Assembly: GCA_963930775.1 (NCBI GenBank) | Contig: OZ005693.1 | Span: forward strand, 930,001 to 994,000 | Direction of reading: 5' to 3' | Source: Cliona cf. orientalis | Taxonomy: Eukaryota; Porifera; Demospongiae; Clionaida; Clionaidae | DNA length: 64,000 nucleotides | Part shown: positions 5,560 to 48,370 of the stretch, piece by piece | Numbering within the stretch: the stretch's first letter is position 1 | How the letters are laid out: the number at the start of each line of letters is the position of its first letter | Position numbers and translations under genes: made by a program | The notes under the pieces: model-generated | Told to the model about the DNA's origin: nothing | What the model saw: the letters and a program-made list of their open reading frames with translations, nothing else | Database searches by the model: none

Positions 5560-5764
5560 AGCACATCCCGCGCTCAATATCTCATTTCCAGTCGAGTCAA
5601 GTAGAGTATTACGAAGTGGTCCAGTCACCCTGTGAATGCCGTCTGAAACGAATAATAATCAGATATTATGTGGTGAAGACAAATTTGGCTTTCGTGAATA
5701 CCTTCAGTTCTGCCACGTTTGCCCATTTCAACAACGTATCCTTACAATGCATGACATATAAACA

Positions 5765-6520
5765 TCTCCGAAGAAGTCGATACTTTGTGATAAACATCTC
5801 TGAAGAAGTCGATACTTCGTTGAGATGTGTGCATGAGATAAACATCTCCGATACTTTGTTGAGATGTGTGCATGAGATTAACATCTCCCAAGTTGAGGAG
5901 ATGTGTTGAGATGTGTGCATGAGATGAACATGTCCCAAGTTGAGGTGTGTGTGTGTGTGTGTGTGTGACATAAACATCTCCGAAGAGGTCAATACTTCAT
6001 TGAGATGTGTGATAAATGTCTCCGAAGAGGTTGATACCTTGTTGAGATGTGTGCATGAGATGAACATCTCCCAAGTTGAGATGTGTGTGTGTGTGTGTGT
6101 GTGTGACATAAACATCTCCGAAGAGGTCGATACTTCATTGAGATGTGTGATAAACGTCTCCGAAGAGGTTGATACTTTGTTGAGATGTGTGCATGAGATG
6201 AACATCTCCCAAGTTGAGGTGTGTGTGTGTGACATAAACATCTCCGAAGAGGTCGATACTTCATTGAGATGTGTGATAAACGTCTCCGAAGAGGTTGATA
6301 CTTTGTTGAGATGTGTGCATGAGATGAACATCTCCCAAGTTGAGATGTGTGTGTGTGTGACATAAACATCTCCGAAGAGGTCGATACTTCATTGAGATGT
6401 GTGATAAACGTCTCCAAAGAGGTCGATACTTTGTTGAGATGTGTGCATGAGATGAACATCTCCAAAGAGGTTGATACTTTGTTGAGATGTGTGTGTGTGT
6501 GTCAGATAAACATCGCCAAA
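5765..6520. repeat. Tandem array of about 120-140 bp units with GT runs
   Basis: Each unit contains sub-repeats of the type ATAAACATCTCCGAAGAGGT then CGATACTTCATTGAGATGTG, a GCATGAGATGAACATCTCCC segment and a (GT)n run of variable length. Full units begin near 5968, 6109, 6231 and 6359, with degenerate copies before and after. The unit leaves long open frames on both strands. On the plus strand it reads SEEVDTLLRCVHEMNIS-like repeats, with one frame continuing into unique sequence to a stop at 6715. I treat this as a minisatellite; translation is possible but unsupported. Confidence 0.8.
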
Positions 6521-7210: not shown

Positions 7211-7270
7211 CAGAGGATCCAGCTTGACCTCGTCAGTTAATCTGGTAATCATCTGAAAGGGGCCACCACC

Positions 7271-8458
7271 ATGGACTTGGAAAAAAACAGTACAAGCCAA
7301 CTAAAAGGTGGGCACCACAGTGGACATCCACACAAGGAAGAAATTATCATCAAACAATTGACCGATCTGGACAACGATCATCAAACACTACTGACACCGC
7401 CACAACCACGTAATTATAAGCGACAGATAAGCTGTGATAGTGAGGATGAGCTATATGTACCTGCACCAAAGAAATTCAAAGCTGATAATACTCATCATCA
7501 AGTAGCAATCGTAATTCCCATTATGGCAAAACGACTACGACATAACATTGGTACCTACAATCGTTGGAGAGGAAACGGTTTCGATGTAGTACTTGTATTC
7601 TATAAGGATGAAGAAGGAGCAGTTACCAACATACTTGATCATTATACTCCAGATATTGCAATGCACCCCTATACCACAAGCATTCCTCCAAATGCTGGAA
7701 TAGCAAAACGCAAAGCTTACCATATTGTTCAGAAATACCTCAATCGACCCGACTTCCAGTATGCTCTGTTGCTTGATGATACAGTGAATGACATTGTCAA
7801 CACACACACGGCGAAATCCTTCATGACCACTCCAACTGAATTCCACCGTGCAGTGATGCAATTTGCTGAAGAGTCCCCCATCTTTGGAGGTACAGTGGCA
7901 TACAAGAGACATCCAGAAGAGTGCAAGCAAGAAGGGATCGCAACAGTTAATGGATGTTTCTTGCAGCAAGCACTTATCTTCTCGTGTAGAGGAACTCCGA
8001 CTCTGAAAAAACACTTCAAAAATGTAGATGACTATGTAGCAAAGATGAGGAGATTGAGCTACAGGAAAGTGCCATTTGGGGAGGATGTTGCATTTCAAGT
8101 TGCTCTATATGAGCATGAACTACTTTCAACAAAGAAGCTCCCAGGGCCTCAGTTCTGGGGGATTGGAATTTCACGTATTCATCATGATTCTTCAACAAAG
8201 CCATCATTTGATCAGCTGGGAGCTGCAACTAAAGAGGCGTTGAAAGACATGCTGATCTACCTGGATAAGCAAAATGCACTCAGCATCAACCCCCAAACCA
8301 ACGAATTGAGGGGAGTGAGGGTCATTCCAGGAGGACATATACGCATTCCCATCACAGGCAGCGAAAGAGAACGACCGTGGAAGGAGGCTTTCGATTATAC
8401 TTTCCAATACAGCAAAGAGAACAAAATTAATATACTATCTTGTATTAATGTCATATAA
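7271..8458 (+). CDS. Single-exon protein, possible glycosyltransferase-like fold, nuclear signal
   Basis: Encodes 395 residues without introns, unlike most neighbouring genes. The first 75 residues are hydrophilic and acidic, ending in a basic patch (PAPKKFK, residues 64-70) that resembles a nuclear localisation signal. No signal peptide or membrane segment is seen. From residue 77 the pattern suggests a GT-A-like nucleotide-sugar fold. There is a beta strand VAIVIPIMAKR, then GFDVVLVFYKDEEG, then an acidic pair in YALLLDDTVNDI (DD at 169-170), then GED at 270-272 followed by a histidine-containing C-terminal part (SRIHHDSS). This is reminiscent of the TAGT-type glycosyltransferase domain described in GREB1 proteins and base-J enzymes, but I cannot confirm homology. 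The start is well supported by the Kozak context and TATA box. Confidence 0.75.
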   Translation: MDLEKNSTSQLKGGHHSGHPHKEEIIIKQLTDLDNDHQTLLTPPQPRNYKRQISCDSEDELYVPAPKKFKADNTHHQVAIVIPIMAKRLRHNIGTYNRWRGNGFDVVLVFYKDEEGAVTNILDHYTPDIAMHPYTTSIPPNAGIAKRKAYHIVQKYLNRPDFQYALLLDDTVNDIVNTHTAKSFMTTPTEFHRAVMQFAEESPIFGGTVAYKRHPEECKQEGIATVNGCFLQQALIFSCRGTPTLKKHFKNVDDYVAKMRRLSYRKVPFGEDVAFQVALYEHELLSTKKLPGPQFWGIGISRIHHDSSTKPSFDQLGAATKEALKDMLIYLDKQNALSINPQTNELRGVRVIPGGHIRIPITGSERERPWKEAFDYTFQYSKENKINILSCINVI

Positions 8459-14915: not shown

Positions 14916-17900
14916 CTAGTAGTACTTGCGGGGGTTACAAGTGTACTCAACAATGAGGTGCCCCTGTTCGTTAGACCCCAAGCAGCTTAGCTTGCCGAAA
15001 AACGATTCTCCAACTTCAAGAGTGCACTTGTTCTTTCCGAGGCATTCTCTTTCCATGGCAAACTTGGAGCTGCCAGCGTGGCACTCTCCCAGCGTGTGAG
15101 TGGAGCAGGCATCCTTGGCCGTCAGCTCAGGGGTTCCATATGATGCCCACTGGATGGTGCTGATAACATCTGTCGAGTTGGTGCACTCAAGAAGAAGGCT
15201 GTTGTCTTTGGTGGCTGAGATTCTGGAATCAAGGCATCTAACTTGAGGAGCTTCACCCTTCCAAGTGAAATTATAATTCCCAGAATCCAATTCCAGTACC
15301 AGTGAATCGGAATCAGATTTCCATTCTGCAGATGTGATGCCAAGTGCTGGACTCTGGGTCAGCGGGCTGTTCTCGGAAAAGATGATCTTCTCTCCGTCCC
15401 AAAGTTTCATGTTGTGTTGACCATGAGCTGGAAGGTGAAGAACACCTCGGCTGCCCATTGGAACACTCACATTCACTCGGATTGAACTGAAAACAAAGTC
15501 TTCTTCGATCTTTGATTTACACTGGATAGATACAGATAGCCATTTGATCTCATAAGGACAGGGGTTCCCCCAGAAATTAGCACCAGTTGGAATAGTACAG
15601 CTCCTCTTTCCGAGACACAATTCTTCAACGATTTTTCGTGAATTTGGAACGTGACAGTTTCCCAGCTTGTGGTAGCCTCCACAGTGACCTGTTGGATTAC
15701 CATAGGAAGCAAACGAGACCTTTTCAATAGTTCCCCCATCTTCCTCCCCACATGAAATGGTCAGGTCATTGTGCTTGGGTAGGTTAGGATTGAGAGGGGA
15801 CTGGTTCTCGGCTTGCTTGGCACACTGAATCCCTCCGTTCCTCTGCCACGAGAGGTGGACAGGTTTAGGGTGCTCTAGGCTCACAGAGACGTGGGACAGC
15901 CCCAGAGCACGAGCAGGGTGAAAGTGAATCTCCTTGAATCCATTTCTCAGTGATAATCCAGCCATATCTGTCACCATCCAGCTGCTGATGCACGAAAACA
16001 TGTGGTGATTTCTCGAGTCCATCCCTGCAGATCCACTGAGAGAGTTCCATAGCTCCCACAGTGCAGTGGCTGGCTCAAGGTTGTTGTGTATCATGAGACC
16101 ATAGCTAGGGTAGTCCATCTGCTGGGCTATCTTTAGAGCTATGTCGTGTTGTTTGAGCTGAGTCAGGACGGGAAGCAGCTGGCGATTGGTAAGTATCCCA
16201 CCAGTCAGATGGCCGTTGTCTTGTTTAGGATCCTCTAGGCGATTCAAGAAGGCTTTTACAAATGCGTCCATTTTATTCTCAGGTACAGCTTGAAGTGCCA
16301 AAGGCAGTACGTATGTGGCCTGGATCCCATTGAGGTACTGTGTATCACTGGTCATGAATGCTTTGTTGAACTGGCCGACGAGACTGACGTAGGTTTGGTC
16401 AAGCTTCTGAGCATCGTCTCCCTCTCCTATCATCTCTGCCACCTCCTTTATTTTTTTGATATTCATCAGGAGAGTGAATGCACCGGTGAAGGTGTTTTCC
16501 ACTTTTGGATTTGGTGGAGGGGGCACCCAGTCACCATAGCGACAGTTCGGCATTTTGCTCATACCCTCTGTTGGAATCGTACTGATCGTAGCATAGATGT
16601 ATTGCAAAACTGAGGGATAAAAACGTTTAGCAGTCACCATATTCTTTTCAATGGTCGCAATCCTGTAAAATACCTCCGGAAAAGCTGCACTCCACGAGGG
16701 GTCACCAGGTCGACCTCCGTAGCGATAAAACGGCACAACGTCTGGTATCGTTCCATTGATCTCCTCATACTCCATCAATAGTAGCCAGTTGGTGTGCAAA
16801 GCTTGAATATCGACGTTGAGTTGCATGGATTCTGCTGACAGTGCAGCATCCCCCATCCAGCCGCATCGCTCGTCCCTCTGGGTGCAGCCTGTCACCACGC
16901 TCAGCAGATTCGACACTTGTGCACGTAGGCAGTTCTCCTGGATGTTGTTCAGGAGAGGAATCGACGATTGAAATTTGCTGTTCATTTGTACGTTTGCATG
17001 AACGACGATCTTCTGAATGTTGTCCTCCGATAAAGTCGTTTGTGTGAGACCTTTAACTTCGGCATAGCGAAAACCATGATAGGTGAAGTCAGGCTTGTAT
17101 GCCATTTTTGTGTCCCCGTTGTAAATATCAGTCGCCTTTGCTCCCCTCAGATTTCCGTAGTAAAGGGATCCATTCATATCACCGTATGGAGCATGCAGGG
17201 GCACTTCTGCATGCCGAATGGTGAAATTACACGATGAGTCATCTTCGCAGTACACCTGGCAATAGCCAGCAGAGTTGTTTGCGAAATCGGCTACTTGGCT
17301 CATCACTGTTCCATTGCTGTCCTTAAGAGGGTATACTTTAACTGGTTTCTCTATTGCGACTTCGGCAATATATGGCATCTCAGACAAATGCATTTGACCT
17401 AAGGGGCCTGGGACCGCCTTTACGCTAGCACCTAACACTCGTTTGTTGCTTGATGTGGAATCGTAGGTTATTCCGTTGTAGATCGTATCGGAGGTTATAT
17501 TTGAGTCGTCCGCCTTCCAAGTTTCATCGCTGACCAGAGTGACGCTCGTTTTATCACTGTAGGTGATGTACAAGAGCATCTTTAGGATTCGTTCTGTTGA
17601 ATCACTTGCCGGAAGGCCACCTGGGTCCTTCGGAGGAAAATCTACCGTATTTCTGCGCCCCAGTCCGAGTATCACTCCAACGGAGAGGCTGTCGCACTTT
17701 TTAGCTTGCATTGTCACATCGTAGACGGCGTAGGGAACGAGTTTCTCATAGTTGGTCCAGCCTGGAGTCAATGCTATGGGTGGGTCGTACTGGGCATTGA
17801 GATCAGTACCGTTGACAAAGGGTTTACTATATCCCAGCCCCGACAGGCATAGGGTGGCGTTAGTGACTTGAGAAGACTTGATCGTGAAGGTTTTGTAGAG

Positions 17901-18398
17901 GTATGGCGCTGTTTTTATCTCGTCCCCTGCAGCAATCCACTTTGCAGAGTCCCAGTCTTTGGGGTCCAGCACAGCTGCCAAGAAATGTCCAGTCTCTTCA
18001 CTAACTGCCACCTCACCTTTGTGGTCCCACCACATCACTCGCCAGAAATACGTTTTAGCCGTTTGGAGGGGTGGTCCGGCATATTTTAGACTTGTTTCAT
18101 CGCTACTGAGCACTTTACCCGAGTCCCAGGTGACGTTTTTCAGGGACATATCCTCTGCGACTATCACCCTGAAGGCGGACTGTCTCGCAGCTCGTTCGGT
18201 GTGCGCTATCGTCCACGAAAGGAGAGGGTTGGGCTCGTCCGTTCCGAGCAGTCTGTGTGTGTGGAGTCGTTGCAGCCGATCTTCGCGCAAACCGACAGGG
18301 TTTCCCTCGCACTTTAGATTGTGAGGCGGCAGCGGGCCTCCATGCGCAAAGGCAAAAATCAGCAGAAAAATCGAGAAACTGATCATGTTGGATGCCAT
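14916..18398 (-). CDS. Secreted GH78 alpha-L-rhamnosidase-like enzyme with two SUEL lectin domains, copy A
   Basis: Single exon. The chosen start (MASNMISFSIFLLIFAFAHG, a signal peptide) gives 1160 residues. The open frame continues 102 codons further upstream, but that stretch overlaps the 3' end of copy B and precedes the signal peptide. Domain order matches copies B and C: an Fn3-like N-terminal domain; a rhamnosidase beta-sandwich (DPKDWDSAKWIAAGDEIKTA); the GH78 (alpha/alpha)6 barrel with TGCTQRDERCGWMGDA, PATALWELW and SRNHHMF; a C-terminal sandwich interrupted by a cysteine-rich SUEL domain (SFASYGNPTGHCGG ... GNPCPYEIKWLSVSIQC); and a terminal SUEL domain (QWASYGTPELTAKDACS). Many N-glycosylation sequons are present. 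Copy A alone has a cysteine in place of leucine in the DERLGW motif. Family role: removal of terminal alpha-L-rhamnose; the natural substrate is unknown. Confidence 0.9.
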   Translation of the reverse strand: MASNMISFSIFLLIFAFAHGGPLPPHNLKCEGNPVGLREDRLQRLHTHRLLGTDEPNPLLSWTIAHTERAARQSAFRVIVAEDMSLKNVTWDSGKVLSSDETSLKYAGPPLQTAKTYFWRVMWWDHKGEVAVSEETGHFLAAVLDPKDWDSAKWIAAGDEIKTAPYLYKTFTIKSSQVTNATLCLSGLGYSKPFVNGTDLNAQYDPPIALTPGWTNYEKLVPYAVYDVTMQAKKCDSLSVGVILGLGRRNTVDFPPKDPGGLPASDSTERILKMLLYITYSDKTSVTLVSDETWKADDSNITSDTIYNGITYDSTSSNKRVLGASVKAVPGPLGQMHLSEMPYIAEVAIEKPVKVYPLKDSNGTVMSQVADFANNSAGYCQVYCEDDSSCNFTIRHAEVPLHAPYGDMNGSLYYGNLRGAKATDIYNGDTKMAYKPDFTYHGFRYAEVKGLTQTTLSEDNIQKIVVHANVQMNSKFQSSIPLLNNIQENCLRAQVSNLLSVVTGCTQRDERCGWMGDAALSAESMQLNVDIQALHTNWLLLMEYEEINGTIPDVVPFYRYGGRPGDPSWSAAFPEVFYRIATIEKNMVTAKRFYPSVLQYIYATISTIPTEGMSKMPNCRYGDWVPPPPNPKVENTFTGAFTLLMNIKKIKEVAEMIGEGDDAQKLDQTYVSLVGQFNKAFMTSDTQYLNGIQATYVLPLALQAVPENKMDAFVKAFLNRLEDPKQDNGHLTGGILTNRQLLPVLTQLKQHDIALKIAQQMDYPSYGLMIHNNLEPATALWELWNSLSGSAGMDSRNHHMFSCISSWMVTDMAGLSLRNGFKEIHFHPARALGLSHVSVSLEHPKPVHLSWQRNGGIQCAKQAENQSPLNPNLPKHNDLTISCGEEDGGTIEKVSFASYGNPTGHCGGYHKLGNCHVPNSRKIVEELCLGKRSCTIPTGANFWGNPCPYEIKWLSVSIQCKSKIEEDFVFSSIRVNVSVPMGSRGVLHLPAHGQHNMKLWDGEKIIFSENSPLTQSPALGITSAEWKSDSDSLVLELDSGNYNFTWKGEAPQVRCLDSRISATKDNSLLLECTNSTDVISTIQWASYGTPELTAKDACSTHTLGECHAGSSKFAMERECLGKNKCTLEVGESFFGKLSCLGSNEQGHLIVEYTCNPRKYY

Positions 18399-18507
18399 GT
18401 TTTCAGCCCCACCCCCTAGTCCGCAGCGCGGGTCATGAGCATGCGCAGTAGAGCAGTTTGCAAAACACAACACAAACTTTATAATTATGCAGCATAAGAT
18501 TATGGGA

Positions 18508-21500
18508 TCAGTTGTAAAAACGGGGATTACACGTGTACTCAACAATGAGATGTCCTTTATTCTTATCTGCAAGACAAGACAGCTTCCCAAAGAACGATTC
18601 CCCAACATGTATCGCACACTTGTTCTTTCCGAGGCATTCTCTTTCCATGGCAAACTTGGAGCTGCCAGCGTGGCACTCTCCCAGCATGTGAGTGGAGCAG
18701 GCATCCTTGGCCGTCAGCTCAGGGGTTCCATATGATGCCCACTGGATGGTGCTGATAACATCTGTCGAGTTGGTGCACTCAAGCAGAAGGCTGTTGTCCT
18801 TGGTGGCTGAGATTCTGGAATCAAGGCATTTTGGTGTAGGATTATCTCCCTTCCAAACAAAGTTGTAATGTCCAGAATCCAATTCCATCACCAGAGAATC
18901 GGAATCAGACTCCCACTTAGCCGACCCAATTCCAAGTGTTGGGTTTAGCCTACTACTTTCAGAGAAGATGATCTTGTCTCCATCCCACAGTTTCATGTTG
19001 TGTTTTCCATGAGCTGGGAGGTGAAGAAGACCTCGGCTGCCCATTGGAACACTCACATTCACTCGGATTGAGCTGTAGATAAAGTCAGTTTTACATTGAA
19101 CAGATACTGAGAGCCATTTGATAATATCAGGACAAGGATTCCCCCAGAAATCAGCGCCTGTCGGAATGACACAGCTCCTCTTTCCTAGGCATAATTTTTC
19201 GACCACTTCTTGTGAATTCATAGCATGACAGTTTCCCAGCTTGTGGTAGCCACCACAGTGACCTGTTGGATTACCATAGGAAGCAAACAAGACCTTTTCA
19301 ATAGTTCCCCCATCTTCCTCCCCACATGAAACGATCAAGTCATCGTATTTGGGTAGGTTAGGATTGAGAGGGGACTGGTTTTCGGCTTGCTTGGCACACT
19401 GAATCCCTCCGTTCCTCTGCCACGAGAGGTGGACAGGTTTAGGGTGCTCTAGGCTCACAGAGACATGGGACAGCCCCAGAGCACGAGCGGGGTGAGAGTG
19501 AATCTCCTTGAATCCCTTTGTCGGAATCAGTCCACTCATATAAGTCACCATCCAGCCACTGACACTAGAGTACATATGATGATTTCGAGAGTCCATCCCT
19601 GCAGATCCTGTTGGAGAATTCCACAGTTCCCAAATTGCTGTGGCCGGTTCGAGGTCATTGTGGATCATATAGCCATAGCTAGGATAAGTTGTTTCCTGAA
19701 CTATCTTCAGTGCTATATCGTGCTGTTTGAGTTGGCTCAACACTGGGAAGAAGTGTCTGGTTGTCGTAATTCCACCTGTGATGTAACTATTATCTTGTTT
19801 GGGATCCTCAAGGCGATTCAAGAAAGCTTTCGCGAAAGCATCCATTTTGTCGCTCGGAACAGCCCCCACTGCTAACGGTAGTACGTAAGTTGCTTGTATC
19901 CCATTCAGGTACTGTGTATCACTGGTCATGAATCCCTTGTTGAAGTCACTTATAAGTTTTTCTAAGGTCTGCTCTAGCATAGTAGAATCGTCCTTCTTCC
20001 CAAGCTTATCTGCCATTTCTTTCGTTTGCTTCACACTCATCATAAAACTAAATGCACCAGTGAAAGTATTATCCACTTTAGGATTCGGAGGAGGGGGTAC
20101 CCAGTCACCATAATGGCAGTTTGGCAGCTTACTGATACCTTGCGCTGGAATTGTGCCGAGTGTGGTCTTAATGTACTCCATTACTGCAGGGTAGTACCTT
20201 TCAGTGATATTACTGTCTTGGTCATGCATTGCTATTTGGTACAAAATCTCAGGAAATGCTGCACTCCAGGAGGGATCGGCAGGTCGACCACCATATCGGT
20301 AGAAAGGCACAACGTCTGGGATAGTTCCATTGATCATTTCGGTCTGAATCTGCTCCAAAAAGTTGGTATGAAATGCTTTCATGTCGAAATTTAGAGTCAT
20401 GGTTTCTGCAGACAGTGTAGCATCTCCCATCCACCCAAGCCTCTCGTCCCTCTGGTTGCAGTCCGTGACTACGCTCATGAGATTTGACAGCTGTCCTCGC
20501 ACGCAGTTCTCTTGAATGGAATTCAGTAGCGGAATAGAAGATTTGAAATTGCTATTCATCGTCAAATTTGAGTGCACGACTATCTTTTGAATGTCTGTAG
20601 TAGTCACTGTCATGCCTCTAACTTCGGCGTATCGGAATCCATGGTAAGTGAATGACGGTTTAAATGTGCTGTTTGCTTCAATGCTGAATGTATCCATTGC
20701 TTTTGCTCCCCTCAGATTTCCATAGTACAGTGACCCGTCCATGTCCCCGTATGGTTTGTGCATGGGCACTTCAGCATGGTGGATAGTGACACCGTTCACC
20801 TCCTTCTCACTGTGCACCTGGCAGTACCCTGCTGAGTTCATTCCAAAGTCCACCACCTGGTAGTCACTCATGGCATGAATATTCACTGGGTTTTCTATTC
20901 CAACTTCAGCCATGTAGGGCATCTCTGAAAGATACATTTTGCCACTTGGCCCCGTAACAACTTTAGCACTTGAGCCCACAATCAGTTTACGTCCCAGCAA
21001 TTGCGTAGCTGCACCGTAAGTACATCCGTTGTATATTGAGTCAGAAGTGATGTTTGTTTCATCCACACTCCAACTCTCATCACTGATCAGATATTTTGAT
21101 GAGTTCTGGGAATAGTCAAAGTAGTACATGAGCACTTTAAGTACACGCTCGGTCGAATCATTTGCTGGAATTCCACCAGGGTCTTTGAGTTTGTAGTCTC
21201 CGGTGTTCCTCCAGCCTCTCCCTAGCATCACACCAATTTTGAGTGAGCTAGTGTTACCAAACGGCAAGCGGATATTATAAGTGTTATAGGGAACGAGCTT
21301 CTCATAGTTGGTCCATTCTGGAGTCAGTGCCATTGGTGGGTTGTACTGGGCACTAATATCGACATCATTGAGAAACAGTTTGTGAAAACCAAGTCCAGCC
21401 ACCATGAGGGTTGCATTCTGAGTGCCAGCACCACTAATACCGAGCTCGAAAGTTTTATGGATATATGGTGCCGTTTTTATGTCATCTCCTGCAGCGATCC

Positions 21501-21957
21501 ACTTTGCATCTTCCCACTGCTCGGGCTCTAGGACACCGACCAGAAAATGTCCAGTCTCCTCACTCACTGCCACCTCACCTTTGTGGTCCCACCACATCAC
21601 TCGCCAGAAATAAGTCCTTCCAGTCTGGAGGGGTGGTCCGGCATATTTTAGACTGGTTTCATCTTGGTTAAGCACGTTTCCCGAATCCCAGATAATGTTC
21701 TTCAAATTTTGATCTGTTGCCACTATCACTTGGAAAGCTGTCTGTCTTGCTGCTCTTTCTGTGTGAGCTACAGTCCACGAAAGAGTGGGATTAGGATTGT
21801 CGGTGCTGAACAGCTTGTGTTTGTTGAGATTTTGAAGTTTTTCCTCACTCAAACCGACATGGTTCCCTTGGCACTTTAGGTTGTAGGGTGGTAGAGGTCC
21901 ACCTAACACATACGAAACAGTAGCAAACAGGAATAGTGTTGAGCTCAGAGCAGCCAT
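18508..21957 (-). CDS. Secreted GH78 alpha-L-rhamnosidase-like enzyme with two SUEL lectin domains, copy B
   Basis: Single exon, 1149 residues from the ATG that begins the signal peptide (MAALSSTLFLFATVSYVLGG). An upstream in-frame ATG at 22008 would add 17 polar residues and is less likely. Same architecture as copies A and C: GPLPPYNLKC start, rhamnosidase sandwich (EPEQWEDAKWIAAGDDIKTA), GH78 barrel with TDCNQRDERLGWMGDA, the DPSWSAAFP segment, PATAIWELW and SRNHHMYSSVSGWM, then nested and terminal SUEL domains. The stop lies 109 bp upstream of the copy A start and the start lies 191 bp from the copy C stop, so the three sit nearly end to end. The conserved carboxylates of the GH78 DERxGWxGD and WE motifs are present, so activity is likely. 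Confidence 0.9.
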   Translation of the reverse strand: MAALSSTLFLFATVSYVLGGPLPPYNLKCQGNHVGLSEEKLQNLNKHKLFSTDNPNPTLSWTVAHTERAARQTAFQVIVATDQNLKNIIWDSGNVLNQDETSLKYAGPPLQTGRTYFWRVMWWDHKGEVAVSEETGHFLVGVLEPEQWEDAKWIAAGDDIKTAPYIHKTFELGISGAGTQNATLMVAGLGFHKLFLNDVDISAQYNPPMALTPEWTNYEKLVPYNTYNIRLPFGNTSSLKIGVMLGRGWRNTGDYKLKDPGGIPANDSTERVLKVLMYYFDYSQNSSKYLISDESWSVDETNITSDSIYNGCTYGAATQLLGRKLIVGSSAKVVTGPSGKMYLSEMPYMAEVGIENPVNIHAMSDYQVVDFGMNSAGYCQVHSEKEVNGVTIHHAEVPMHKPYGDMDGSLYYGNLRGAKAMDTFSIEANSTFKPSFTYHGFRYAEVRGMTVTTTDIQKIVVHSNLTMNSNFKSSIPLLNSIQENCVRGQLSNLMSVVTDCNQRDERLGWMGDATLSAETMTLNFDMKAFHTNFLEQIQTEMINGTIPDVVPFYRYGGRPADPSWSAAFPEILYQIAMHDQDSNITERYYPAVMEYIKTTLGTIPAQGISKLPNCHYGDWVPPPPNPKVDNTFTGAFSFMMSVKQTKEMADKLGKKDDSTMLEQTLEKLISDFNKGFMTSDTQYLNGIQATYVLPLAVGAVPSDKMDAFAKAFLNRLEDPKQDNSYITGGITTTRHFFPVLSQLKQHDIALKIVQETTYPSYGYMIHNDLEPATAIWELWNSPTGSAGMDSRNHHMYSSVSGWMVTYMSGLIPTKGFKEIHSHPARALGLSHVSVSLEHPKPVHLSWQRNGGIQCAKQAENQSPLNPNLPKYDDLIVSCGEEDGGTIEKVLFASYGNPTGHCGGYHKLGNCHAMNSQEVVEKLCLGKRSCVIPTGADFWGNPCPDIIKWLSVSVQCKTDFIYSSIRVNVSVPMGSRGLLHLPAHGKHNMKLWDGDKIIFSESSRLNPTLGIGSAKWESDSDSLVMELDSGHYNFVWKGDNPTPKCLDSRISATKDNSLLLECTNSTDVISTIQWASYGTPELTAKDACSTHMLGECHAGSSKFAMERECLGKNKCAIHVGESFFGKLSCLADKNKGHLIVEYTCNPRFYN

Positions 21958-22148
21958 TGTTGTTGCAATATGAGCCCCACCTCCTTTGTTGGAGTTGATA
22001 TTCATCAAGTGTTGATCTTTGTCTGTGGGTGTCTAAATAGAATGAATATCAGCAGGATACTGATTAAGTTCAATGGAAATATTATATTTAAATGATATTC
22101 ATAATCAAGTAGCAGAATATTAGTACACAAGAAGCGCTTAGAATACTT

Positions 22149-25100
22149 TCAATAGTAGTTAAGAGCACGGCGGTTACAAATGTATTCAACAATGAGGTGC
22201 CCCTGTTCATTATGTTTAAGACAGTGTATGTTACCGAAAAATGATTCCCCAACATGTATCACACACTTGTTCTTTCCGAGGCATTCTCTTTCCATGGCAA
22301 ACTTGGAGCTGCCAGCGTGGCACTCTCCCAGCGTGTGAATGGAGCAGGCATCCTTGGCCGTCAGCTCAGGGGTTCCATATGATGCCCACTGGATGGTGCT
22401 GATAATATCTGTCGAGTTGGTGCACTCAAGCAGAAGGCTGTCGTCTTTGGTGGCTGAGGTTCTGGAATCAAGGCATTTTGGTGTAGGATTGTCTCCCTTC
22501 CAAACAAAGTTGTAATGTCCAGAATCCAATTCCATCACCAGTGAATCGGAATCAGACTCCCACTTAGCCGACCCAATTCCAAGTGTTGGATTTAGCCTAC
22601 TGCTTTCAGAGAAGATCATCTTGTCTCCATCCCACAGTTTCATATTGTGTTTACCATGAGCTGGGAGGTGAAGAAGACCTCGGCTGCCCATTGGAACACT
22701 CACATTCACTCGGATTGAGCTGTAGATGAAGTCAATTTTGCATTGAACAGATACTGAGAGCCATTTCATAATATCAGGACAGGGGTTCCCCCAGAAATCA
22801 GCTCCTGTTGGAACAACACAGCTCCTCTTTCCTAGGCATAATTTCTCAACCACTTCTACAGAATTTGTAGCATGACAGCTTCCCAGCTTGTGGTAGCCTC
22901 CACAGTGACCTGTTGGATTACCATAGGAAGCAAACAAGACCTTTTCAATAGTTCCCCCATCTTCCTCCCCACATGAAACGGTCAGGTCATCGTATTTGGG
23001 TAGGTTAGGATTGAGAGGGGACTGATTCTCGGCTTGCTTGGCACACTGAATTCCTCCGTTCCTCCGCCAGGAGAGGTGGACAGGTTTGGGGTGCTCCAGG
23101 CTCACAGAGACGTGAGACAGCCCCAGAGCACGAGCGGGGTGAAAGTGAATCTCTTTGAATCCCTTTGTCGGAGACAGTCCAGCCATGTCAGTCACCATCC
23201 AGCCGCTGACACTAGTAAATGCATGATGGTTTCGAGAGTCCATACTTTCCGATCCATTATGAGAGTTCCACAGCTCCCATAGAGTAGTGGCCGGCTCGAG
23301 GTTGTTGTGGATCATAAAGCCATAGCTGGGGTACTGTAACTGCTGAACTATTTTCAATGCTATGTCATGCTGCTTGATTTGAGTGAGGACTGGAAAGAGA
23401 TATCGAGTTGTTACAATTCCACCAGTCACGTAGTAGTTATCTTGTTCAAGGCGATTCAAGAATGCTTTTATAAATGTGTCCAGCTCATTGTCTTGTATAG
23501 CCCCCAGAGCTAGCGGCATCACATATGTCGCCTGGATCCCGTTTAAGTATTGGGTATCGTTGGTCCTGAATCCTTTGTTGAAATCAGCTACTAGCTTCTT
23601 GAATGTTTGCTCCAGCATGTTTGCATCATCAGTCTTGCCTAGTAAGTCTGCTATAACTTTCATTCGTTTGATGTTCATCAAGAAACTGAAAGCACCAGTG
23701 AAAATATTATCTACTTTAGGATTTGATGGAGGGGGTACCCAGTCACCATAGCGACAATAGGGCATTTTGGTAATGTCCTGTTCAGGTAATGAGTTGAGTG
23801 TAGTCTTAATGTACTCCATCACGTCAGGATAAAACTGCTTGGTGATTGTAATATTTTTCACGTAAGTTGCGATTTGGTGGAAAATTATGGGAAAAGCTGC
23901 ACTCCACGAGGGGTCACCAGGTCGACCTCCGTAGCGGTAGAGCGGTACAACATCCGGGATCGTTCCATTGATCATTTCAGACGCCATCAAAAAGAGAAAG
24001 TTGGAATGAAACGCCAGCATATCAAAGTTAAGTTCCATGGACTCTGCCGTAAGTGAAGCGTCTCCCATCCAGCCGAGTCTCTCGTCCCTCTGATCGCAAT
24101 CCGTGACCACACTCATGAGATTTGAGAGCTGTCCTCGGATGCAGTTCTCCTGGAGTTTGTTCAGTAGGGGGATAGAGGATGTAAATTTGCTGTTTCTTTC
24201 CACATTTGCATGGACTACTATCTTTTGAATGTTGTTCTCTGTCAAGGACATGCGATCGAAGCCCGTAGCTTCAATATAACGGAATCCATGATACGTGAAT
24301 GATGGTTTGTATGTAGTTTCAACGTCACCGTCGTAGTTTTCCGTGGCATTAGCTCCTCTTAGATTTGCATAATAAAGGGAGCCATCTGCCTCCCCATAGG
24401 GCTGGTGCAAGGGCACCTCTGCATACTGAATGGAATAGTTAGGTTCATCGTCACACCACACTTGACAGTATCCTGCAGAATTGTTTCCAAAGTCGGCAAT
24501 TTGACTTATAAATTCTCCACGTTTGTCTAAACGAGGGTATATCTTAACTGGCTTCTCTATCGCTGCCTCCACAATATATGGCATTTCTGGATAATACAAT
24601 CTCCCACTTGGTCCAGTTACAACTTTAACACGTGCATCCATAACTGAATCATAGAACCCATAGCTTTCTCCATTGAAAATTGAATCTGAGGTGATGTTTG
24701 AATCATCCACATGCCAACTTTCATCGCTGACTAGGGGACTTGCTGGTGTGTGTTCATTATTATAGGCTACGTACAAAAGTATTTTCAGTACTCTTTCTGT
24801 AGAGTCTGTGGGTGGTATGCCCCCAGGGTCTCGTAGGGGGTAGTCTGCACTATTCCTCCAGCCTAGTCCTAGCATGACACCTATACTGAGGTGGTTCTCA
24901 CATCTCTTAGCTTGTGTTGATATATCGTAGGCTGTGTATGGAATCAGTTTCTCGTAGTTGGCCCAACCTGGCGTCAGTGCTATGGGTGGCTCATAGTGAG
25001 CGTTAAGATCCGTGCCGTTTGCAAACGGTTTACTGAATCCAAGTCCAGCAACAAAAAGAGTTGCAGATACAACTTTGGATGAGTTTATAGCGAACTTTTT

Positions 25101-25610
25101 GTGGAGATACGGTGCTGTTTTTATCTCGTCCCCTGCAGCAATCCACTTTGCAGTGTCCCAGTCTTTTGGATCCAGCACAGCTGCCAAGAAATGTCCCATC
25201 TCCTCACTCACTGCCACCTCACCTTTGTGGTCCCACCACATCACTCGCCAGAAATAAGTCCTTCCAGTCTGGAGGGGTGGTCCGATGTACGTTAGACTTG
25301 TTTCATCTTGGCTAAGCACTTTCCCCGAATCCCAGATAATGTTTTTCAAATTTTTATCTTCTGCCACTATCACTTGGAAAGCTGTCTGTCTTGCTGCTCT
25401 TTCTGTGTGAGCTACTGTCCATGAAAGCAAAGGGTTTGGACTGTCTGTGAAGAATACTTTGTGTTTATCCAACTGTCGGAGTCTTTGTGCAGTCAATCCC
25501 ACATGGTTACCTTCGCATTTCAGGTGGTGCGGTGGCAAGGGTCCCCCTCTTGAATAGAAAATAAGAGCCAAAAGTACCAAAAGTGTACTGTGTTGTAATT
25601 GTGCAGCCAT
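22149..25610 (-). CDS. Secreted GH78 alpha-L-rhamnosidase-like enzyme with two SUEL lectin domains, copy C
   Basis: Single exon, 1153 residues from MAAQLQHSTLLVLLALIFYS (signal peptide to about residue 21). An in-frame GTG/ATG-type start four codons upstream is possible. Approximate map: Fn3-like domain 24-145; rhamnosidase N-terminal sandwich 146-340; GH78 barrel about 460-810 with CDQRDERLGWMGDA (505-518), GDPSWSAAF (565-573), NLEPATTLWELW (770-781, candidate catalytic Glu) and SRNHHAFTSVSGWM (792-805); C-terminal sandwich from about 815, interrupted by SUEL domain 1 (about 878-957) and resuming SSIRVNVSVPMGSRG; SUEL domain 2 about 1046-1145. SUEL lectins typically bind L-rhamnose or galactose, so binding and cleavage specificities may match (inference). 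This is the 5'-most copy of the cluster and is divergent from CPT1. Confidence 0.9.
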   Translation of the reverse strand: MAAQLQHSTLLVLLALIFYSRGGPLPPHHLKCEGNHVGLTAQRLRQLDKHKVFFTDSPNPLLSWTVAHTERAARQTAFQVIVAEDKNLKNIIWDSGKVLSQDETSLTYIGPPLQTGRTYFWRVMWWDHKGEVAVSEEMGHFLAAVLDPKDWDTAKWIAAGDEIKTAPYLHKKFAINSSKVVSATLFVAGLGFSKPFANGTDLNAHYEPPIALTPGWANYEKLIPYTAYDISTQAKRCENHLSIGVMLGLGWRNSADYPLRDPGGIPPTDSTERVLKILLYVAYNNEHTPASPLVSDESWHVDDSNITSDSIFNGESYGFYDSVMDARVKVVTGPSGRLYYPEMPYIVEAAIEKPVKIYPRLDKRGEFISQIADFGNNSAGYCQVWCDDEPNYSIQYAEVPLHQPYGEADGSLYYANLRGANATENYDGDVETTYKPSFTYHGFRYIEATGFDRMSLTENNIQKIVVHANVERNSKFTSSIPLLNKLQENCIRGQLSNLMSVVTDCDQRDERLGWMGDASLTAESMELNFDMLAFHSNFLFLMASEMINGTIPDVVPLYRYGGRPGDPSWSAAFPIIFHQIATYVKNITITKQFYPDVMEYIKTTLNSLPEQDITKMPYCRYGDWVPPPSNPKVDNIFTGAFSFLMNIKRMKVIADLLGKTDDANMLEQTFKKLVADFNKGFRTNDTQYLNGIQATYVMPLALGAIQDNELDTFIKAFLNRLEQDNYYVTGGIVTTRYLFPVLTQIKQHDIALKIVQQLQYPSYGFMIHNNLEPATTLWELWNSHNGSESMDSRNHHAFTSVSGWMVTDMAGLSPTKGFKEIHFHPARALGLSHVSVSLEHPKPVHLSWRRNGGIQCAKQAENQSPLNPNLPKYDDLTVSCGEEDGGTIEKVLFASYGNPTGHCGGYHKLGSCHATNSVEVVEKLCLGKRSCVVPTGADFWGNPCPDIMKWLSVSVQCKIDFIYSSIRVNVSVPMGSRGLLHLPAHGKHNMKLWDGDKMIFSESSRLNPTLGIGSAKWESDSDSLVMELDSGHYNFVWKGDNPTPKCLDSRTSATKDDSLLLECTNSTDIISTIQWASYGTPELTAKDACSIHTLGECHAGSSKFAMERECLGKNKCVIHVGESFFGNIHCLKHNEQGHLIVEYICNRRALNYY

Positions 25611-27575: not shown

Positions 27576-30500
27576 TTGATAAAGTAATGAATATCCTTAG
27601 GTCTTGTGTCTCTGTTTGTAAACAATGTCCTAATGAGTGAATTATGTGCACCCTGTGAATATTCCTCATATTACATAAATTCATGAAAGATTCTATAATA
27701 TTATAGCCAGACTTCAGGTCACCAGCAAAGCCTTATTTTAGCTCATACAAAAGGTCAGCCGGAATTGGCATGGCGACATAACCTTGTAATTGGCGTAAAC
27801 GAGTGGTCAGAAAAGGTCACTGTCGGCCAATTTGTATAGCAGGGGCACAAACAAGGAATGTCTAGGCATTTGTCCATAATACAATAGTGGTAGGGCATTA
27901 TAATAGTATAACATAATAAATGTTTCCTGGTAGTATGATAAGGTAGTACTATGCTTAGGGGTCTATGACAGCCACTTGTTGGGCTTACCAAATTTTTTTA
28001 CGACACAGGTCATGGCGTATGCGCAACTGGATAGCAAAATGGTGGGTTGACTTCATCTATCTTCGCCAGAGGACTCCCATAAGCTGTAAGCCATGCATCT
28101 GCTGGGGAAAAATCTATAGTATTATACTTTTGAAGTTGTTTACATCAGTGTGTGTGTGTGTATGTGAGTGTTTGCTATGGTTGTGCCTGTTGTTTTGGTT
28201 TCTTTGCTCCCTAGAGCTGCAAAGGTCACCTTTTCTTGGCCAGAAATTGAATATTAAGGACCATAATTTCATCAACTTTGCCTTATTATACTTCCTCAGT
28301 GGGAGTGCCCACAGCCTACTATATACAGTACTGTGTGTGTAATAGTGTGCAACAGTGACCTTCCAGCTACCTATTTACTATGCTGGGGGAGGGATTTGGC
28401 TAATAAAATTACATTTTTGGCATTCCATTGGGGGACATAGGGTTATTGTGGGCCTACAATACAGTGCAGGCACTTTGTGGTATCCAGTGCTGACCTTTAT
28501 GGTGTGTGTATTGTGTATATAGGGAGTATACAATGCCAACATTGAATGCTCCATTAAGGTGCAGTATTGGCTTTTAGCACGTGCTATTGACAGTGCTATT
28601 TATGCTATTTCAAAACCATGCTATTAGCATAAATAGCAAGGAAAGATTTAGGGATGCTATTTGTGCTAATTCTGCTATTTTGCTTCATCGCTGGATTGTC
28701 ATGCTATTTTCCCATCATTTCTGGTTTACCATGGACAGCATGCTATTTTTGCTATTTTGCTATTTTCCATCATTTCTGGTTTACCATGGACAGGATGCTA
28801 TTTTTGCTATTATGCTATTTTGCTATTTTCCATCATTACTGGTTTACCCATGGACAGCATGCTATTTTGCTATTTTCCATCATTACTGGTTTACTTATGG
28901 ACAGCATGCTATTTTTGCTATTTTGCTATTTTGCTATTTTCCATCATTACTGGTTTACTCATGGACAGCATGCTATTTTTGCTATTTTGCTATTTTCCAC
29001 TATTATTCCTATAGTTAAAATTAATTTTGCCATCAACCAAGAAGTCAGATCAGAGCTAGAGCTAGGGAAGGTTGTGTCTGTCTGTTTGTGCCATGGCCTG
29101 AAGAAGAGGTACATGTAGTAGTACAGCAGGGACATCGATGCTCACGCCTGGAGGAGCTTGGATTGTTCCCATGTAGCAGACCTACTGCAAGCATAGGGTA
29201 CGTGCACTCATTAGCCTCGTACCCAGGCTCAAGAGCTGAGTCATCTTTATTAAAATTAATAGTGAAGGTACTTGTAGAGGTGCAGATTCTACAGTAGCAG
29301 CTTGCTCTCTTAGTCAGTTGATCATAAATCAATGGTGAAAGTTACTAATAACTTAATTAGCTTTGTAGTCCACAAAGTTTATTGTACTGATTGGTTTGAC
29401 TGGTAGTTAGGCCAGACCAATTTAATTTGTTGTTGCTCCGATATTGTGAGGTAAAAATTGGACCGAGCGACCGAAAAAAAGCAATCAATTGGGTTGTGGT
29501 TATTTGAAGGATGGGATACCTTGATGAGCTGCTCTCATCACATGCAAAGGCAACGTGACTAGCTATGGTACACACGTACGGTAGACCATCAAAATCCAGG
29601 TCTGGAATAGCCTTGTACCCAGGTCAATTCACAAGGCTAGGTCTGGAAATACATTGTCGGTGGAAAAAAATTATTATCAGTACAGACACACAAATTAAAA
29701 TAATATAAAAACACAGTATAAACAGAATAGCAAAATAGCATAAATAGCAAAATAGCAAGCGTCCCGAGGTACACCACAAAATAGCAAAATAGCATGCATA
29801 AAATTAATAGCAAAATAGCAAGCGTCCCAGTGCCAGGTAAACCATGGAATAGCAAAATAGCATAAATAGCAAAATAGCAAGTGACCCAGTGGTAATCACA
29901 GAATAGCAAAATAGCATAAATAGCAAAATAGCAAGCGTCCCAGTGGTAATAATCACAGAATAGCAAAATAGCATAAATAGCAAAATAGCAAGCGTCCCAG
30001 TGGTAATAATCACAGAATAGCAAAATAGCATAAATAGCAAAATAGCAAGTGACCCAGTGGTAATCACAGAATAGCAAAATAGCATAAATAGCAAAATAGC
30101 AAGCGTCCCAGTGGTAATAATCACAGAATAGCAAAATAGCATAAATAGCAAAATAGCAAGCGTCCCAGTGGTAGTTACAGAATAGCAAAATAGCATAATA
30201 GCAAAATAGCAAGCGTCCCAGTGCCAGGTAAACCACGGAATAGCAAAATAGCATAAATAGCAAAATAGCAAGCGTCCCAGTGCCAGGTAAACCACGGAAT
30301 AGCAAAATAGCATAAATAGCAAAATAGCAAGCGTCCCAGTGGTAATCCACAGAATTGTTTTTATAGCAAAATAGCAAAACTATGGTGTGCAATAGCATAA
30401 ATAGCACTTAAGTGCTAATAGCATAAATTAGCATGGAAACATATAGTAATAGCAAGGTGCTATTATTATAGTGCTATTATGCTAAAAGCCAATACTGCAC

Positions 30501-36758: not shown

Positions 36759-48370
<11,612 letters not shown>

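Follow-up and report, generated by a model that had tools for sequence, protein, structure and literature searches.

How does a sponge come to encode enzymes that remove rhamnose, and why are lectin domains built into them? The question is raised by a 64,000-nucleotide stretch of the genome of Cliona cf. orientalis (contig OZ005693.1, positions 930,001 to 994,000; here called the window), in which a preliminary description had placed three consecutive genes for secreted rhamnosidases of glycoside hydrolase family 78 (GH78), each with two lectin domains of the sea urchin egg lectin (SUEL) type, at positions 14916-25610. Alpha-L-rhamnosidases have been studied as microbial enzymes. In this study, the three genes, RhaA, RhaB and RhaC, were analyzed together with a fourth copy, RhaD. 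The Rha proteins are probably secreted, most likely active inverting exo-alpha-L-rhamnosidases of the sponge, which would be anchored on glycan surfaces by their lectin domains.

Architecture of the tandem genes and the nested lectin

Three long minus-strand frames were found exactly where they had been described, arranged head-to-tail and each uninterrupted (Table 1). All three proteins matched four GH78 Pfam families above the curated cut-offs, namely the six-hairpin catalytic Bac_rhamnosid6H (E 9e-63 to 2e-71), the N-terminal Ig-like Ig_Rha78A_N (E 2e-20 to 2e-23), the GH78 N domain Bac_rhamnosid_N (E 6e-17 to 4e-21) and the concanavalin-like Bac_rhamnosid (E 2e-11 to 1e-13). SUEL_Lectin was detected in two stretches per protein, likewise above its cut-off (whole-protein E 1e-25 to 8e-28). 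The Pfam search thereby confirmed both the GH78 identity and the two SUEL-type domains per protein. Two NCBIfam alpha-L-rhamnosidase models also matched (E 2e-60 to 4e-97), but far under their equivalog cut-offs, which is the pattern of distant homologues. The nearest solved chain of RhaC was the alpha-rhamnosidase DtRha of Dictyoglomus thermophilum (6i60; E 6.9e-104). Identity to RhaC was 74% for RhaB, 72% for RhaA and 51% for RhaD.

Each protein opens with a hydrophobic segment that looks signal-like by eye and is followed by a common GPLPP..LKC word. Together with 9-12 sequons and the cysteine-rich lectins, this points to the Rha proteins being secreted glycoproteins, as they apparently are. 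Ratios of nonsynonymous to synonymous substitution rates (dN/dS; Nei-Gojobori) of 0.205 (RhaC-RhaB), 0.167 (RhaC-RhaA) and 0.159 (RhaB-RhaA) identify them as constrained genes and not chance frames; synonymous sites were saturated in comparisons with RhaD. The gaps between the three genes measure 191 bp (21958-22148) and 109 bp (18399-18507). Both AATAAA and ATTAAA are present within 500 bp downstream of RhaA, and neither follows RhaB or RhaC. The tight spacing and this pattern of poly(A) signals could reflect one shared transcript or merely a compact genome.

For comparison with prokaryotes, the best 80 of at least 584 confirmed loci were used, which were chosen by motifs shared with the sponge proteins and are not a random GH78 sample. 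Residue counts and the tree were based on 80 open reading frames (ORFs) from 78 of these 80 loci; L053, L063 and the second, short frame of L064 were excluded (<800 residues), while L088 and L090 contributed two ORFs each. The alignment used for folding contained 35 of those 80 ORFs.

A hairpin of the GH78 C-terminal beta-sandwich is 117-123 residues long in the sponge copies compared with 6 residues in 77 of the 80 prokaryotic homologues; the lengths in DtRha and SaRha78A (5 and 6) were not used, since the compared pieces end there. SUEL1 lies within this insert. The AlphaFold model is consistent with the nesting: RhaC shows the GH78 fold with its (alpha/alpha)6 barrel, and the fold match to GH78 structures continues to residue 1039, thereby spanning SUEL1. 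When the full RhaC model was compared with the PDB, SUEL chains were absent from the match table, which was filled by GH78 and other barrel enzymes. Because these had crowded the SUEL chains out, SUEL1 was folded by itself; the C-terminus of rice beta-galactosidase 1 was then the top fold match, tied with the sea-urchin lectin SUL-I, so that profile and fold both identify the domain as SUEL. Owing to the nested lectin, the architecture is more unusual than the preliminary description had said, and the nesting of SUEL1 as well as the existence of RhaD are new beyond it. The GH78 and SUEL parts are each of known kinds; one lectin within the enzyme body plus one at its tail is what sets the Rha proteins apart from the prokaryotic relatives that were compared, which have neither.

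DtRha and SaRha78A (3w5m/3w5n) have the overall GH78 fold and domain order in common with the Rha proteins and agree with them in the acid, the second catalytic Glu and the residues of the pocket. Unlike in Rha, no SUEL match was seen in them. Residues 137-285 of SaRha78A, which we take to be the CBM67 that follows its N-terminal domain as an insertion, are not matched by anything in the alignment with RhaC, and RhaC accordingly does not look like a GH78 protein of the CBM67 type. The plant GH35 beta-galactosidase of rice (BGal1, 5iaz) is likewise a glycosidase bearing a SUEL domain; it belongs to an enzyme family other than GH78. According to the entry title, its SUEL is a C-terminal tail; it is not known to be nested as SUEL1 is in Rha. 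SUL-I (5h4s), CSL3 (2zx0) and the latrophilin lectin domain share the SUEL fold and the ASYG and KWL positions with Rha. We know of no animal rhamnose-binding lectin that carries GH78. SUEL domains also occur in prokaryotic surface or secreted proteins, such as RemA (8gl6) and proteins with SprB repeats or Por_Secre tails.

Active site, lectin domains and putative function

A feared loss of the catalytic carboxylates was not seen, as the alignment retains acid and base in all four copies. The equivalents of SaRha78A E636 (the acid), E895 (presumably the general base) and five pocket residues (W640, D643, W695, W747 and H916) are all intact, with the acid at E510 and the second catalytic Glu at E779 in RhaC numbering. 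Among the 80 prokaryotic ORFs, E636, W640, D643, E895 and H916 are kept in 80, W747 in 79 and W695 in 76. The pocket roles follow an excerpt of PMC4690510, which, in KoRha numbering, gives the GH78 acid (SaRha78A Glu 636) and the second catalytic Glu, and has rhamnose held by an Asp, a His and two Trp that sandwich it. These residues were transferred to SaRha78A E636, E895, W640, W747, D643 and H916 by motif spacing, and W695 was taken for the residue that the same excerpt gives as Trp in SaRha78A. D630, R634 and D635 are also kept in RhaB and RhaC, which are the copies with the most complete active site and the best candidates for full activity. Judged by these residues, rhamnosidase activity is likely for RhaB and RhaC and probable for RhaD; in RhaA it is doubtful or altered and may be weakened.

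In the proposed mechanism, the common ancestor of the four genes would have received a SUEL fold by a single insertion into the hairpin loop of the C-terminal beta-sandwich of GH78, and another SUEL would have been added at the C-terminus. The lectins would hold the enzyme on glycan-rich surfaces, such as the walls or capsules of bacteria, cyanobacteria and algae or the sponge matrix, and the catalytic barrel would cleave off terminal alpha-L-rhamnose.

Several observations weigh against this proposal. RhaA has Gly at D630, which is Asp in 80 of the 80 prokaryotic ORFs, and RhaD has Ser at D635, which is Asp in 68. Across the catalytic and following region, 33 of the 81 columns conserved in at least 68 of the 80 ORFs differ in one or more sponge copies, including N912 (Asp or Ala in the sponge copies), D630 and D635; the family is therefore divergent around a kept core. 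The SUEL regions have low confidence in the full model, where many residues fall below 50 in the predicted local distance difference test (pLDDT). The ligand motifs of SUEL/rhamnose-binding lectins are ANYGR and DPC....KYL, and intact versions were found in neither SUEL1 nor SUEL2. At these places SUEL1 of RhaA-C carries ASYGN and NPC....KWL, as had been pointed out for the words ASYG and NPC....KWL, but the R and the D of the animal lectins are both replaced by N; SUEL1 of RhaD reads ASFGN and DPC....KWM, with the D kept. SUEL2 has ASYGT or, in RhaD, ASFGS, and has lost both DPC and the following K. Also, exon-by-exon profile searches of the genome gave no match to rhamnose mutarotase (PF05336; controls matched in 5 of 14 genomes) or to GH88/105 (PF07470; controls matched in 3 of 14 genomes).

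The substitutions in RhaA and RhaD and the unmatched mutarotase would also suit pseudo-enzymes: some or all copies might have been retained to recognize microbial rhamnose, as lectin receptors or opsonins, and their barrel would serve for binding instead of catalysis. We consider this improbable, as the acid, the base and five more pocket residues are intact in every copy.

Among solved single domains, the C-terminus of rice beta-galactosidase 1 was nearest to SUEL1 (63 bits; best SUL-I domain 34 bits) and to SUEL2 (41 bits; best SUL-I domain 16 bits). For SUEL1, the whole three-domain SUL-I chain nevertheless ranked first (81 bits). Since the ligand motifs are partly lost and the nearest single domain is that of a plant beta-galactosidase, rhamnose binding by the SUEL domains is a guess. 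The earlier claim of a rhamnose-targeting lectin is thus supported only in part, by the motif residues kept in SUEL1 and the rank of the whole SUL-I chain, and it falters on the altered motif positions and the plant domain. It is quite conceivable that rhamnose is not a ligand of the SUEL domains and that these stabilize the protein, bind proteins or have a different specificity, as the tail of the plant GH35 enzyme may; the match between enzyme and lectin sugar would then be a coincidence. The single-domain scores, the tied fold match and SUEL2 without DPC..K favor such a role, whereas the rank of the whole SUL-I chain, the ASYG, PC and K retained in SUEL1 (in RhaD also the D) and the likeness of the lectin half among the tandem copies speak against it.

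The lack of a match to rhamnose mutarotase or GH88/105 would fit stripping or sensing of rhamnose better than its use as food via the bacterial route, which is not supported by the genes found. The same two results, together with the tandem expansion of a signal-bearing family, are in line with the sponge remodeling rhamnose-containing matrix or glycoproteins of its own instead of dietary or defensive digestion. We regard such a role as unlikely.

Homogenization of the lectin half

At fourfold sites of residues 1-810, RhaC and RhaB differ in 110 of 237 codons, RhaC and RhaA in 145 of 244, and RhaB and RhaA in 143 of 243. From residue 811 onward, the respective differences drop to 17 of 145, 28 of 134 and 29 of 135. 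Fisher p values for this contrast were 6e-13 (RhaC-RhaB), 2.4e-13 (RhaC-RhaA) and 1.3e-12 (RhaB-RhaA); they are somewhat flattering, as the boundary at 811 was picked after viewing windowed values, though the drop is abrupt. The control pair RhaC-RhaD showed no contrast (108 of 160 vs 59 of 84; p 0.77). A similar synonymous dip was seen between RhaC and RhaB at residues 76-150. The homogenized, lectin-bearing 3' parts extend over approximately 14916-15959 (RhaA), 18508-19533 (RhaB) and 22149-23180 (RhaC). The simplest reading is gene conversion among the tandem copies, which would keep the lectin half alike while the catalytic halves diverge under purifying selection.

On a tentative and rather doubtful extension of the lectin-anchored rhamnosidase proposal, the family may represent an animal-specific enzyme class in which the lectin inserted into the enzyme physically couples the binding of glycans to rhamnose removal. 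Gene conversion would then keep a shared lectin address on paralogues diverging in their cuts, and the sponge would strip or read rhamnose-rich food bacteria and symbionts. The homogenized lectin half and the diverged catalytic halves give a specific prediction, namely the same address with different cuts. A conserved, expanded and probably secreted sponge family would allow testing how an early-branching animal handles microbial and algal glycans, and the nested lectin offers a clear-cut marker for dating the insertion across sponge and animal genomes.

Genomic residence, relatives and further features

Two GH78 profiles each matched at least four places in the 217-Mb genome of 149 contigs, and these were the same four genes. 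RhaD, on contig C7 (10.0 Mb), has the catalytic domain and two SUEL domains as in the trio and was over the cut-off of both GH78 Pfam families with which it was searched. Its long frame is preceded by an 83-bp GT-AG intron of phase 1; splicing joins ...QHT to DRSV..., a place at which the tandem copies are uninterrupted. A bacterial symbiont or contaminant as the owner of the genes could be suspected from the mostly microbial occurrence of GH78 and from the tandem copies having no introns. We give this virtually no credence; contamination, as well as recent transfer, was ruled out because the trio is embedded in a contig of 11.5 Mb and shares the window with an EPL1/PHD (BRPF-type) gene, RhaD has its intron on a large contig of its own, and identity to the nearest prokaryotic relatives reaches 33-36% among the matches listed. 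The Rha genes reside in the genome of an animal, as had been assumed, most likely of a siliceous sponge. Wnt profiles matched at three genome places (contigs C4, C8 and C19), and two cysteine-protease-like exons (L128 and L132, contig C12) carry CGASYAF with Ser replacing the catalytic Cys, which we take to be the silicatein signature.

In a tree of 87 rows, RhaA-D are united in a single clade (Shimodaira-Hasegawa-like approximate likelihood ratio test, SH-aLRT, 100) whose stem measures 1.9 changes per column and which groups with 20 rows of Acidobacteriota/Aminicenantes type (SH-aLRT 91; quick tree without bootstrap). A donor of this type is not claimed because of the long stem, the missing bootstrap, the unsure root and a single other eukaryotic row, which is fungal. 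A bacterial origin of the fusion of GH78 and SUEL was rejected, as a SUEL profile derived from all eight domains of the sponge copies matched none of 5809 frames (>=60 residues) at the 80 prokaryotic loci (best E 0.39). The Pfam SUEL profile matched in 5 of 395 genomes from the phylum of a Draconibacterium (Bacteroidota). It matched in 0 of 396 genomes from the phylum of an Acidobacteria genome, in 0 of 387 from that of a Verrucomicrobiales genome, and in 0 of 20 genomes picked from the holders of the 80 loci; controls were silent too in these three sets, so absence is not proved. Unlike Rha, the five bacterial SUEL frames had no GH78 domain in the scanned parts, which were the whole frames for L102-L104 and, for L101 and L105, portions of longer frames; the SUEL of L105 was below the cut-off in its scanned part. 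A viral source was rejected after 57 pattern matches without a relative. Scanning a genome collection with patterns from the sponge-only alignment, which are perhaps too special, gave no relative among 46 matches. A literature search for GH78 with SUEL or for animal GH78, covering titles and abstract openings, returned no such protein, and an excerpt of PMC5792627 describes a beetle genome without GH78.

Table 1. Coordinates of the Rha genes and their domains in the window.
Feature	Position	Strand	Remarks
RhaC, GH78 + 2 SUEL, signal-like N-terminus	22149..25610	-	single exon, 1153 aa
RhaB, architecture as RhaC	18508..21957	-	single exon, 1149 aa
RhaA, architecture as RhaC	14916..18398	-	single exon, 1160 aa; SaRha78A position 630 Asp -> Gly
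RhaC catalytic (alpha/alpha)6 domain, Bac_rhamnosid6H	23190..24197	-	own-genome profile match C5:953190-954197; holds E510 and E779
RhaC SUEL1, residues 870-958	22737..23003	-	nested in GH78 C-terminal beta-sandwich
RhaC SUEL2, residues 1045-1147	22170..22478	-	3' of GH78 body
RhaB SUEL1	19090..19356	-	nested
RhaB SUEL2	18523..18831	-	C-terminal
RhaA SUEL1	15516..15782	-	nested
RhaA SUEL2	14931..15239	-	C-terminal

Elsewhere in the window, a 405-residue plus-strand frame (7241-8458) had no Pfam match at E 0.001; its LLLDD and nearby words look glycosyltransferase-like by eye. Long frames of repeated words at 5666-6501 and 29637-30407 are unlikely to be genes, and a tRNA-Arg (CCT) lies at 42777-42849 on the minus strand. 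On contig C16, two clusters of cathepsin-type protease domains (L106-L115 and L117) were found, each readable in one frame.

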